Assembly: GCF_019316905.1 (NCBI RefSeq) | Contig: NZ_CP079216.1 | Location: forward strand, 2,232,001 to 2,296,000 | DNA length: 64,000 nt | Direction: 5' to 3' | DNA from: Tessaracoccus palaemonis | Lineage (GTDB): Bacteria; Actinomycetota; Actinomycetes; Propionibacteriales; Propionibacteriaceae | Part shown: one piece after another, positions 48,976-52,883 of the stretch | How positions within the stretch are numbered: the stretch's first letter is position 1 | How the letters are laid out: each line of letters opens with the position of its first letter | Made by a program: the position numbers and the translations under genes | The notes under the pieces: model-generated | What the model was told of the DNA's origin: nothing | What the model saw: only the letters and a program-made list of their open reading frames with translations | Databases searched by the model: none

Positions 48976-49638
48976 ATGGCCTGGTTCCGACGTGGCAATG
49001 CCGTCCTGGCCCCTCGCGTTCCTTACGGGCCGCTGCGGCGGTTCCTGCTCTCGACCCCGCCCGGGCGCGACACCCCGCTGGAGGAGTTGCGTCTGCTGGC
49101 GATCGACCTCGAGACCACCGGGCTGTCGCCGGCCAGCGACCACATCCTCTCGGTCGGCATGGTGGACGTCGACGGGCTGTGCATCCCGCTCGGCACCGCC
49201 ACCAACGTCCTGGTCAACCCGGGCACCGGCGTCGGCCAGTCCGCCGTGATCCACGGCCTGACCGACGACGAGCTGCTCGCCGACGGGATCCCTCCCGCGG
49301 CGGCACTCGACCTCGTCTTCGAGCGCCTCGTCGGTCGGGTGCTGCTGGCCCACCACGCCGGCGTGGAGGTCGGCTTCCTGACCGCCGCGGTGCGCTCCCT
49401 CCACGGGATCACGATCGGCATTCCCGCGGTCGACACGATGGTGCTGGGGCACCGGGCGCTCGGCATCGGCGAGGACCACCCGGCCGACGCGCTGCGCCTG
49501 TGGCGGCTGCGGCGTCGCAGCGGCCTGCCGACCTACAAGGGGCACGACGCGGTCGTGGACGCCCTGGCGTGCGCGGAGTTGTACCTCGCCCTGGCCCAGG
49601 AGCTGGGGCTGCGCCGGTTCGCTCAGGTCCGCGCCTGA
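48976..49638 (+). CDS. DnaQ-like 3'-5' exonuclease
   Basis: A DEDDh-type exonuclease of 220 residues. Exo I is AIDLETTGL, Exo II HHAGVEVGF and Exo III HDAVVDALA; the catalytic Asp, Glu, Asp and Asp and the general-base His are present. It resembles the epsilon proofreading subunit but is a stand-alone domain. Linked to the cNMP/CBS/DUF294 gene with three bases between, the two very likely act in one pathway. Its 3' end overlaps the convergent NUDIX gene by 16 bases. Confidence 0.87.
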   Translation: MAWFRRGNAVLAPRVPYGPLRRFLLSTPPGRDTPLEELRLLAIDLETTGLSPASDHILSVGMVDVDGLCIPLGTATNVLVNPGTGVGQSAVIHGLTDDELLADGIPPAAALDLVFERLVGRVLLAHHAGVEVGFLTAAVRSLHGITIGIPAVDTMVLGHRALGIGEDHPADALRLWRLRRRSGLPTYKGHDAVVDALACAELYLALAQELGLRRFAQVRA

Positions 49639-50186
49639 GGCCCCAGGTCGCCGAGCAGCATGACGGTCTCGTCCCAGCCGGGCGCGAGCCACTCCAGCAG
49701 CTGCGGCAGCTCCACGGGGAACACCTCGACGTCGATCGCCGCGAACTCGTCGGCCGTGAACCAGTGCAGGGAGTCGACGAAGTGGCGCTCGACCTCGGTC
49801 CACCCGTCGGTTGCCAGAGCCTCGTCGGACAGGTCGCCGTCGAGTCGCCCGACGAAGAACTCCTCGGCCTGGCGGACCGGACGGGCGAAGAAGTCGAAGA
49901 CAGAGCTGCGGGCCGCAACCGGGCCCGTCAGAGCGCCTGGGTCGAGCACCAGCCCCGTCTCCTCGAGCACCTCCCGCACGGCCGCCTCCCGTGCCGTCTC
50001 GCCCGGGTCGATGCCTCCGCCGACCGTGAACCACCAGGTGCGCTCCGGCTGCTGGGCGTCGTGGGCCTGCACCAGCAGGAGGCGACCGGCGCCGTCGAAG
50101 AGCAGCACCCGGGCGGCGCGGCGGAACGGGAGCCCGTCGTCGCCGATCCTCCAGCCCTCCCCCGGCAGCGGTCCGTCGTCAGTCAC
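49623..50186 (-). CDS. NUDIX hydrolase
   Basis: A 187-residue nucleoside-diphosphate-X hydrolase. The Nudix box is GGIDPGETAREAAVREVLEE followed by TGL, matching Gx5Ex7REUxEExGU. Substrate cannot be deduced. GTG 50186 lies seven bases after TAGGGT, suggesting a leaderless start; GTG 50195 is an alternative. It is divergent from eutS and convergent with the exonuclease gene. Confidence 0.88.
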   Translation of the reverse strand: MTDDGPLPGEGWRIGDDGLPFRRAARVLLFDGAGRLLLVQAHDAQQPERTWWFTVGGGIDPGETAREAAVREVLEETGLVLDPGALTGPVAARSSVFDFFARPVRQAEEFFVGRLDGDLSDEALATDGWTEVERHFVDSLHWFTADEFAAIDVEVFPVELPQLLEWLAPGWDETVMLLGDLGPQART

Positions 50187-50193
50187 GGGCCCC

Positions 50194-50199
50194 ACCCTA
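50194..50199 (-). promoter_or_regulatory. -10 box for the NUDIX gene
   Basis: TAGGGT on the minus strand, seven bases (GGGGCCC) before GTG 50186, with no Shine-Dalgarno sequence. Confidence 0.4.
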
Positions 50200-50275
50200 C
50201 GGCCAGGGTCGCCCCGGGTCGCGGAGTTGAGGCACTGGACCTAGACTCGGCGGTGACAACCGACGGAGGGCAACG

Positions 50276-50635
50276 ATGGCCGACGACAACCTCACCCGCA
50301 TCATCCAGGAGACGGTCCCGGGCCGTCAGATCACGCTGGCGCACATCATCGCGCGGCCGCGGCCGATCATCTACAAGAAGCTCGGCCTGAACCCGGGGAT
50401 CGACTACTCGCAGTCCGCGATCGGCGTGCTGACGATGACGCCGGCCGAGATGGCGATCATCGGCTCGGACCTGGCGACCAAGGCCTCCGACATCGAACTC
50501 GGGTTCCTCGACCGCTTCTCGGGCACCCTGATCTTCACCGGGACGCTGTCGAATGTGGAGCAGGCGATCAGGGAGATCCTCAACTACGCCGAGCACACGC
50601 TGCGTTTCACGGTGTGCCCCGTCTCGCGCTCCTGA
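50276..50635 (+). CDS. eutS: Bacterial microcompartment shell protein, EutS/PduU type
   Basis: A 119-residue circularly permuted BMC-domain protein. It aligns closely with E. coli EutS: IIQETVPGRQITLAHIIARP, then AIGVLTMTPAEMAIIGSDLA and LGFLDRFSGTLIFTGTLSNVE. EutS/PduU form bent hexamers in the shell of ethanolamine or propanediol microcompartments. A normal GGAGGG site lies five bases before the ATG and a TAGACT -10 box at 50242-50247. It is coupled (TGATG) to a EutP/PduV GTPase gene. No other shell protein or signature enzyme is in the window, so the pair is an orphan or satellite locus. Confidence 0.92.
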   Translation: MADDNLTRIIQETVPGRQITLAHIIARPRPIIYKKLGLNPGIDYSQSAIGVLTMTPAEMAIIGSDLATKASDIELGFLDRFSGTLIFTGTLSNVEQAIREILNYAEHTLRFTVCPVSRS

Positions 50636-51057
50636 TGCGCAAGATCATGCTGGTCGGCCGCGTCGGGAGCGGCAAGACCACGCTGACGCAGGTGCTGAGG
50701 GGCGAACAGATCAGCTACCACAAGACGCAGTACATCAACCACCACGACGTGGTGATCGACACGCCCGGCGAGTACGCGGAGACCAAGGAACTGGCCCGCG
50801 GGCTGGCGCTGTACAGCTATGAGGCCGACGTCATCGGTCTCCTGCTCAGCGCGACGGAGCCCTTCTCGCTGTACCCGCCGAACCTGACCGGGTCGGTGAA
50901 CCGGGAGGTCATCGGCATCGTGACCCGCATCGACGACCCCGAGGGTGACGCGGACCAGGCCGAGCGGTGGCTCGAGCTGACCGGCGTCGAGCACATCTTC
51001 CGGGTCTCCGCCGTCACCGGCGAGGGCGTCGAGGAGCTGCTCGCGCACCTCGCCTGA
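50635..51057 (+). CDS. eutP: EutP/PduV-type small GTPase
   Basis: A 140-residue Ras-like GTPase associated with microcompartments. G1 is GRVGSGKT (8-15), G3 DTPGEY, G4 TRIDD (the usual Lys is Arg) and G5 SAVTGEG. The family pattern QYINHHDVVIDTPGEY is conserved. PduV has been reported to associate with the outside of microcompartments and influence their movement; acetate-kinase activity has been reported for a EutP. ATG 50635 overlaps the eutS stop by one base, so translation is coupled. Confidence 0.9.
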   Translation: MRKIMLVGRVGSGKTTLTQVLRGEQISYHKTQYINHHDVVIDTPGEYAETKELARGLALYSYEADVIGLLLSATEPFSLYPPNLTGSVNREVIGIVTRIDDPEGDADQAERWLELTGVEHIFRVSAVTGEGVEELLAHLA

Positions 51058-51093
51058 GGCCGGGCGCGACGGCCCGGACGCCGAACCACACCG

Positions 51094-51123
51094 TTGGGAT
51101 TTGCCCGCGACGGCGACTAGAGT
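51094..51123 (+). promoter_or_regulatory. Predicted promoter of the helicase gene
   Basis: TTGGGA (-35, 51094-51099) and TAGAGT (-10, 51118-51123) are 18 bases apart. The -10 is eight bases before GTG 51132, so the transcript should begin at or next to the start codon. Confidence 0.55.
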
Positions 51124-51131
51124 GGCCGACC

Positions 51132-52883
51132 GTGTCGTCGTCGGCCCTCGAGCATCTCTCCCCCGCCTTCCCCCAGCGAGCCGCCTGGGGTACGGCGTCG
51201 TCGCTGCGCGCCTGGCAGCAGGAGGCCCTCGACATCTACGAGCGCGACGACCCCCGCGACTTCCTGTGCGTCGCGACCCCGGGCGCAGGCAAGACGACGT
51301 TCGCGCTGCGCATCGCGCTGAACCTGCTGCGCTCCCGCACGGTGCGTCGGATCGTCGTCGTCGCCCCGACGGAGCACCTGAAGGTGCAGTGGGCCGACGC
51401 CGCCGCCCGCGTCGGCATCCAGCTGGACCCCGGCACCGGCGGCTCCTCGCGCCGCGGACGCTCGAAGGAGTACGACGGCTCCGTCGTCACGTACGCGGGC
51501 GTCGCGGCCCGCAGCTACGTCTACGAGGCGCTGTGCCACTCCAAGGAACTCCTGGTCATCTTCGACGAGATCCACCACGCGGGTGACTCGAAGAGCTGGG
51601 GCGAGGCGATCAGCTACGCCTTCACGCACGCGACCCGGCGCCTGTCGCTGACCGGCACCCCGTTCCGCTCCGACGACAATCCCATCCCGTTCGTCGCGTA
51701 CGACGAGCTGGCCCCGGGGGTGAAGCAGTCGCGCGCCGACTACACCTATGGCTACTCTGAGGCGCTGGCCGACAGCGTCGTGCGCCCCGTGCTGTTCATG
51801 AACTACGGCGGCCCGATGCGCTGGCGCACCAAGTCCGGCGACGAGCTGGCCGCCGAACTCGGCGTGCCGATGACCAAGGACCTCACGGCCGCGGCCTGGC
51901 GCACCGCGCTGTCGCCGACGGGAGAGTGGGTCAACGCGGTGCTGCGGGCCGCGGACACGCGGCTGACGGAGGTCCGCCGCCACGTACCCGATGCTGGCGG
52001 GCTCGTCATTGCCACCAACCAGACGACCGCGCGGGCCTATGCCCGGCTGCTGGCCGACCTCACGGGCGTCAAGCCGTGCGTGGTGCTCTCGGACGATGCG
52101 TTGGCCAGCTCCCGCATCGACGCGTTCTCCGGGTCCGACGAGCGCTGGATGGTCGCCGTCCGCATGGTCTCGGAGGGCGTCGACGTGCCCCGGCTCGCCG
52201 TCGGCGTCTACGCGACCGCCACGTCGACCCCGCTGTTCTTCGCGCAGGCCGTCGGCCGCTTCGTGCGCTCGCGCCGCAAGGGGGAGGTCGCCACCGTCTT
52301 CCTCCCGACCGTGCCGGTGCTGCTGGCGCACGCCTCGACCATCGAGAAGCAGCGCGACCATGTACTGGGGCGGCCGAAGAACGACGAGGACGGGTTGTGG
52401 GCCGAGTCCGAGGCCCTGATGGAGGCGGCCAACTCCTCGGAGTCCGCCTCCGACGACCTGCTCGGCGAGTTCGAGGCCCTCGAGTCGCATGCGACTTTCG
52501 ACCACGTGCTGTTCGACGCGCAGGCCTTCGGGATGCACGCCGAGCCGACCAGCCAGGACGAGGCCGACTACCTCGGCCTCCCCGGGCTGCTGGACGCCGG
52601 CCAGGTCCGCACGCTGCTCGCGGACCGGCAGCGCCGCCAGGTGAAGCGGCACGAGCACGCGGACCGGAAGGTCGAGCCGGAGGTCGCGCTGCACCGGGCG
52701 ATCGCGACGAAGCGCAAGGAGCTCAACTCGCTGGTCAGCCAGTACGCCAATCTGAAGGGCGTCCCGCACAGCCACGTGCACGCGGACCTGAGGCGCGAGT
52801 GCGGCGGCCCGAAGCTGGCGCAGGCCTCGTCGGCGGAGGTCGACGAGCGGATCACGGCGATCCGAGGCTGGCTGCGGGGCTGA
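51132..52883 (+). CDS. SF2 DEAD/DEAH-box helicase
   Basis: A 583-residue superfamily 2 helicase. Walker A is ATPGAGKTT (48-56), motif II FDEIHHAGD with D145 and H148, motif III LTGTPFRSD, and in the second RecA domain MVSEGVDVPRLAVGV and QAVGRFVRSRRKG with the arginine finger. A C-terminal region rich in charged residues (HEHADRKVEPEV) follows. The layout resembles phage- and restriction-type DEAD/DEAH helicases (UvrB/ResIII family). GTG 51132 was chosen from the -10 spacing and the start of homology. The biological role is not shown by neighbours. Confidence 0.88.
   Translation: MSSSALEHLSPAFPQRAAWGTASSLRAWQQEALDIYERDDPRDFLCVATPGAGKTTFALRIALNLLRSRTVRRIVVVAPTEHLKVQWADAAARVGIQLDPGTGGSSRRGRSKEYDGSVVTYAGVAARSYVYEALCHSKELLVIFDEIHHAGDSKSWGEAISYAFTHATRRLSLTGTPFRSDDNPIPFVAYDELAPGVKQSRADYTYGYSEALADSVVRPVLFMNYGGPMRWRTKSGDELAAELGVPMTKDLTAAAWRTALSPTGEWVNAVLRAADTRLTEVRRHVPDAGGLVIATNQTTARAYARLLADLTGVKPCVVLSDDALASSRIDAFSGSDERWMVAVRMVSEGVDVPRLAVGVYATATSTPLFFAQAVGRFVRSRRKGEVATVFLPTVPVLLAHASTIEKQRDHVLGRPKNDEDGLWAESEALMEAANSSESASDDLLGEFEALESHATFDHVLFDAQAFGMHAEPTSQDEADYLGLPGLLDAGQVRTLLADRQRRQVKRHEHADRKVEPEVALHRAIATKRKELNSLVSQYANLKGVPHSHVHADLRRECGGPKLAQASSAEVDERITAIRGWLRG

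Follow-up and report, generated by a model that had tools for sequence, protein, structure and literature searches.

A eutS-eutP gene pair in the window (the whole stretch of 64,000 nucleotides analysed here) is, in the reading that we consider reasonably probable, a horizontally acquired satellite BMC locus acting in trans on the Pdu microcompartment of the same genome. The first gene (50276..50635, plus strand) encodes a eutS/pduU-type BMC-H shell protein of 119 residues, which matches PF00936 with 47.1 bits against a cut-off of 24.5, and the second (50635..51057, plus strand, from the ATG at 50635) encodes a eutP/pduV-type GTPase of 140 residues, which matches PF10662 with 171.1 bits against a cut-off of 21. 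The eutS stop codon TGA (50633-50635) and the eutP start codon ATG (50635-50637) have one base in common in a TGATG overlap, which suits translational coupling of the two genes. With both reading frames above the Pfam cut-offs and joined by this overlap, the EutS/PduU and EutP/PduV unit described in the initial annotation is real. That annotation had also credited it with a conventional promoter and ribosome-binding site, of which the second part stands: a GGAGG motif (50265..50269, plus strand), read from the sequence, is separated by 6 nt from the eutS ATG at 50276. A putative -10 element, TAGACT (50242..50247, plus strand), was read in the same way, and both elements are kept in the sister species (G159), but scanning 49600-51200 for consensus elements revealed no promoter of the sigma-70 type, and no clear -35 was seen at the right spacing to TAGACT.

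The window EutS matched eight solved chains, all EutS or PduU (E 7e-32 to 3e-27), one of them titled ethanolamine carboxysome structural protein. Together with the PF00936 score, these relatives assign the protein to the PduU/EutS type, in which the BMC domain is circularly permuted; against the E. coli-type model NF012012 it scores 101.7 bits, below the cut-off of 123. The usual G4 motif of GTPases is TKxD. The window EutP shows a G4-like TRID at this place, along with the motifs GRVGSGKT (G1), DTPGE (G3), and SAVTGEG (G5), so that PF10662 with the P-loop and G3 places it among the EutP/PduV GTPases; its score with TIGR02528, 136.1 bits, is just under the cut-off of 138.35, and the sequence search found no solved chain matching it. 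The GC content of the two genes is 65% and 67% with a GC3 of 0.96. This composition is unremarkable, and the case for a foreign origin therefore rests on the tree described below rather than on composition.

The genome (G000) is a single contig of 3.20 Mb. Profile searches found seven PF00936 domains and one PF03319 gene in it, all but one at C1:456-466 kb; the window holds one PF00936 match, the EutS, and the single PF03319 match falls outside it. The locus at C1:456-466 kb, with six PF00936 domains (BMC-H/T) and the PF03319 gene (BMC-P), also encodes the large and medium subunits of diol dehydratase, the large and small subunits of its reactivase, a cobalamin adenosyltransferase (PduO), an aldehyde dehydrogenase (PduP), and a EutJ-like protein, with a gene for an Fe-type alcohol dehydrogenase nearby; by this gene content it is a B12-dependent pdu operon. 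A resident pduU-pduV pair (455640-456440) is divergent from the operon. The window pair lies about 1.8 Mb along the contig from the operon and shares with the resident pair 47% identity in EutS and 41% in EutP; at these identities it is a second, distant paralogue, and because the genome already has a pduU-pduV pair, it is an extra copy.

Satellite BMC loci have been defined as contiguous shell genes with PF00936 or PF03319 domains, not both, with a main locus elsewhere in the genome and no BMC-associated Pfam immediately nearby (PMC4207490). The window contributes a single shell gene with PF00936 only, and the pdu locus with six PF00936 domains and one PF03319 gene lies elsewhere in the genome. 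Since the PF10662 gene eutP adjoins the shell gene, the pair is "satellite-like" in the terms of that source (PMC4207490), while in another source "satellite" covers shell genes located away from the main locus, whether or not enzymes accompany them (PMC8217296). The initial annotation had called the pair an orphan with no other BMC-domain protein in the window, and had offered a satellite of a main locus elsewhere as one explanation. As a description of the window this is accurate, the PF00936 and PF03319 searches finding EutS alone; as a description of the genome "orphan" is rejected, given the pdu operon and the resident pair on the same contig, and the full-genome search bears out the satellite explanation. 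Neither of the two findings that the initial annotation named as refuting its observation holds: no complete operon is directly adjacent, and the pair is not decayed. A view limited to a window or a contig can thus make a satellite locus look like an orphan.

The substitutions between the genome and its sister species argue that the window pair is maintained. EutS differs by nine synonymous changes and one non-synonymous change, and EutP by six and three; of the 19 changes in total (15 synonymous, four non-synonymous), four or fewer non-synonymous ones have a probability of 1.6e-6 under neutrality, and decay of the pair is rejected on this pattern. The two genes of the resident pair show 14 synonymous changes against none non-synonymous, and 13 against two. 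Amino-acid changes are few in both pairs, which indicates that both are maintained. The G4 motif of the resident PduV reads TKSG, i.e., its aspartate is lost. Such a loss occurs in 12 of 37 resident copies, compared with three of 78 copies of the clostridial type, so it is common among resident copies and not specific to satellite-bearing genomes. The terminal branch of the resident pair, at 0.72, is also among the longest in the tree. From the missing aspartate and the long branch, the resident pair may already be diverging.

Relatives of the window EutS occur in 51 of 197 genomes of the family, and the pair type of the window (at least 59% identity, the next best being 56%) in five of them (G000, G159, G146, G072, and G086); among same-genus genomes, two of 38 have it. 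In a class-wide sample of 394 genomes, the own genome alone has any match at E 1e-5. We examined the best 80 of 220 EutP relatives from named genomes, which were selected for their similarity to the window EutP and are thus not a fair sample of Clostridia: one belongs to an actinobacterial MAG, HGW-Actinobacteria-5 (76% identity), and the other 79, with 62-70% identity, are from Bacillota by title, except for L080, whose title is just "uncultured bacterium". The pair of HGW-Actinobacteria-5 (L183:10029-11203) lies beside a deoC-like gene, named by eye, whose product would release acetaldehyde; a link is possible.

A tree of 108 EutS+EutP rows, built by a quick search without bootstrap and with clostridial rows picked by likeness to the window EutP, unites the window pair with those of the sister species and HGW-Actinobacteria-5 (SH-aLRT 99). 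This trio falls within the clostridial part of the tree (split 100), where it adjoins four clostridial pairs that have no BMC genes beside them (94). The resident pair groups with other actinobacterial pairs. A constraint that placed the trio with the resident pairs of actinobacteria was rejected (AU p 1.2e-4, with a log-likelihood 106 lower). Because the window pair sits among clostridial pairs and not among the resident actinobacterial ones, horizontal acquisition from a clostridial-type source is probable. This is the simplest reading and not the only one: rows L195, L217, L218, L220, and L221 are clostridial but of another EutP type and fall on the actinobacterial side, so the tree is split by subfamily as much as by phylum. 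The tree suggests two separate entries into the family, one of the window trio and one of G072 and G086, but a constraint uniting all five family satellites is not rejected (AU p 0.118), which makes one and two entries indistinguishable.

The pair sits among housekeeping-like neighbours, including pflB, a DUF294/CBS protein, an exonuclease, a NUDIX hydrolase, a helicase, a GST-like protein (by eye), and malic enzyme. An extra stretch of 1,493 bp between the exonuclease and helicase genes (49639..51131, no strand assigned) contains the pair and its divergent neighbour, the NUDIX hydrolase gene on the minus strand (49623..50195; PF00293). This NUDIX gene is outside the eutS-eutP system and is present without the pair in G176 and G193. 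In four same-genus genomes (G084, G188, G193, and G170) the exonuclease-helicase gap measures 85-102 bp and has no pair, and at 28 helicase loci from other same-genus genomes, two of them covered for only about 0.3 kb upstream, neither EutS nor EutP adjoins the helicase. The contents of the gap vary, with NUDIX and eutS-eutP in the genome and its sister species, a photolyase-like gene (by eye) in G167, and NUDIX alone in G176, as seen in the window and the related loci L191 and L188. Between the genome and its sister species, the stretch 48976-50195 shows a dS of 0.33 for the exonuclease and 0.42 for NUDIX, compared with 0.06-0.17 in seven surrounding genes, as if the exonuclease/NUDIX stretch had recombined. 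An exact 11-base repeat is found at the exonuclease stop (49632) and the eutP stop (51051), with a count of two in the window against 0.17 expected, a number reached by one of 100 shuffles. We rejected it as an insertion footprint and treat it as chance because the sister species does not retain the copy next to the exonuclease. The window has no tRNA genes.

Isolated pairs of this type occur in genomes that possess compartment genes. Among the best 80 of 220 EutP loci, 44 have no PduA, PduB, or PduN match in the examined flank, some of them owing to contig ends. Whole-genome searches covered 29 of the 43 clostridial loci of this sort, the 14 left out being mostly on short contigs, and all 29 genomes carry 5-21 PF00936 domains; the background rate, taken from a sample of G214's class that includes three of the 29, is 75 of 245 (Fisher p 4e-14, assuming an independence that does not hold). 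The five family genomes with the window pair type all have 7-9 PF00936 domains and a PF02286 diol dehydratase, on a background of 69 of 197 family genomes with any PF00936 match. PF02286 is present in 24 of the 34 satellite-bearing genomes (5/5 family and 19/29 clostridial), and as the remaining ten are without it, the pairs as a kind are not confined to Pdu, a point that weighs against the satellite reading. In 14 of 25 genomes (22 of the 29 clostridial and three of the family), the pair-type EutP is the only EutP, and in 13 of these 14 it lies apart from BMC genes in the examined flanks, the exception being G086, where it is beside the pdu operon; in those 13 the isolated gene would be the only source for the compartment, though contig breaks in MAGs could separate true neighbours in such counts.

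Several loci depart from the simple pair. Four Anaerobutyricum-like loci (L065, L035, L040, and L084) have EutP without EutS beside conserved non-BMC genes, and G213 (A. hallii), G222, and G224 carry five EutP genes each. In four others (L018:6040-10225, L019:5965-10420, L021:1074-5253, and L037:6306-10462), glycyl-radical-enzyme-like and activase-like genes, named by eye, lie directly upstream of eutS-eutP. The latter four have no PduA, PduB, or PduN match in the examined flank and BMC genes elsewhere in their genomes, and are possibly split GRM loci.

PduU has been described as a hexamer with a β-barrel over the pore, with a PduU-PduV contact detected by two-hybrid and PduV placed outside the shell (PMC4315436). 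Each compartment is reported to contain approximately 130 PduU monomers, a minor part of the shell, and approximately 7 PduV, and a PduV-GFP fusion was seen at compartments (PMC7181861). A strong role is argued against by the reports that compartments assemble without EutS or PduU and that EutP looked cytosolic in Salmonella (PMC12487888). From these published data, the window pair would be expected to add a minor tile together with its GTPase. The window EutS would be built into the Pdu shell as a hexameric tile in low copy number, either replacing the resident PduU or sitting next to it. Its outward β-barrel would provide a docking site on the cytosolic face for EutP, a Ras-like GTPase. The docked EutP could affect positioning or another GTP-dependent step. 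With a promoter region of its own, the pair might supply the tile and the GTPase under conditions other than those of the pdu operon. Both the compartment that the pair serves and the timing of its service are points that we infer. Single knockouts of PduU/EutS or EutP/PduV have mild effects. Natural material for separating the roles of these proteins is offered by this complete genome, in which a foreign extra pair accompanies a resident one, and by the genomes with an isolated sole EutP. A wider proposal, which we regard as rather doubtful, is that EutS-EutP pairs of the window lineage are two-gene accessories, passing between Bacillota and Actinomycetota separately from BMC operons and exchanged into compartments already present. 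Conditions would then decide which of two minor tiles, both foreign and each with a GTPase of its own, a single Pdu shell uses.

The presence of a constrained resident pair makes the extra pair formally redundant, which is a point against the satellite reading and in favour of a neutral passenger, acquired by chance and kept for now without a role. The passenger is also favoured by the restriction of the pair to two of 38 same-genus genomes and by the weak transcription of the analogous pairs of Acetobacterium woodii (PMC7593272), the latter counting against the satellite reading too. We nevertheless hold a passenger to be quite improbable: the excess of synonymous changes, the intact frames and motifs, the kept ribosome-binding site and -10 element, and the retention of the same pair type at other sites in G146, G072, and G086 all argue against it. 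It is also unlikely that the pair works without a compartment, EutS serving as a scaffold or hexameric platform for a EutP that acts either as a free GTPase or as a small kinase of acetate/propionate. EutP has been reported as an acetate kinase in Salmonella, where it looked cytosolic (cited in PMC12487888 and PMC7593272), and 19 of 153 clostridial locus rows, duplicates included, have EutP without a neighbouring EutS. The window EutP, however, scores 49.7 bits against the cut-off of 258 of the EutP acetate-kinase equivalog model NF012011, far outside that family, and several other BMC genes are present in all of the 29 clostridial and five family genomes with such genes, so that the initial annotation's alternative of a shell protein and GTPase reused without a compartment has lost most of its ground.

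The same annotation had pointed to the nearby pyruvate formate-lyase, since glycyl radical enzymes are housed in some compartments, while judging this PflB to be the free cytosolic form. The pflB gene is approximately 3.3 kb from the pair, and the glycyl-radical-enzyme-like genes upstream of the related pairs in L018, L019, L021, and L037 lend the idea of a tie some colour. The judgement on the enzyme agrees with our assignment, as it exceeds the NCBIfam cut-off for formate C-acetyltransferase, whereas the proximity found no support as a functional link: pflB and DUF294 are adjacent in G167, which has no pair, so the proximity is ancestral and coincidental to the pair, and no pflB match occurs in the examined flanks of G146, G072, and G086, the distance not being conserved. 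On the NCBIfam assignment and the G167 adjacency we rejected the tie to pflB, which is barely credible.

The satellite reading, to which we return, has several published counterparts. In the case of A. woodii, clusters 2 and 3 (pduU-pduV2 and pduU-pduV3) are likewise lone two-gene units beside unrelated genes, away from the B12-dependent pdu operon; as described, cluster 1 is without pduU and the satellites hold the only PduU, (PMC7593272), whereas the operon examined here has retained a pair of its own, to which the satellite, from another lineage, is an addition. Transcription of the A. woodii pairs was 20-30-fold weaker than that of the main cluster on every substrate examined, and the authors were sceptical of a role for them there (PMC7593272). 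In Propionibacterium freudenreichii, pdu locus 1 (pocR, pduQ, pduV, and pduU) likewise places pduU-pduV apart from the main shell and enzyme locus (PMC8149966, PMC11255663). Described with the only pduU-pduV pair, that locus has a regulator and pduQ (PMC8149966, PMC11255663), and the window unit is without either companion. The satellite and satellite-like loci of PMC4207490, where PduV/EutP is reported near 57% of the satellite-like ones, likewise have an incomplete shell complement and a main locus elsewhere, and by that definition the window pair does not differ from them; it is particular in its foreign origin beside a resident pair. The β-carboxysome CcmK3/K4 satellites are likewise shell paralogues off the main locus, for which a role in adjusting the shell through regulation of their own has been proposed, but they belong to another compartment and, unlike the window pair, are without a GTPase partner (PMC8217296). 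The kind of locus is thus already known, satellite loci (PMC4207490, PMC8217296) and lone pduU-pduV pairs (PMC7593272) having been published, and what is new relative to these descriptions is the foreign ancestry of a pair beside a resident one.
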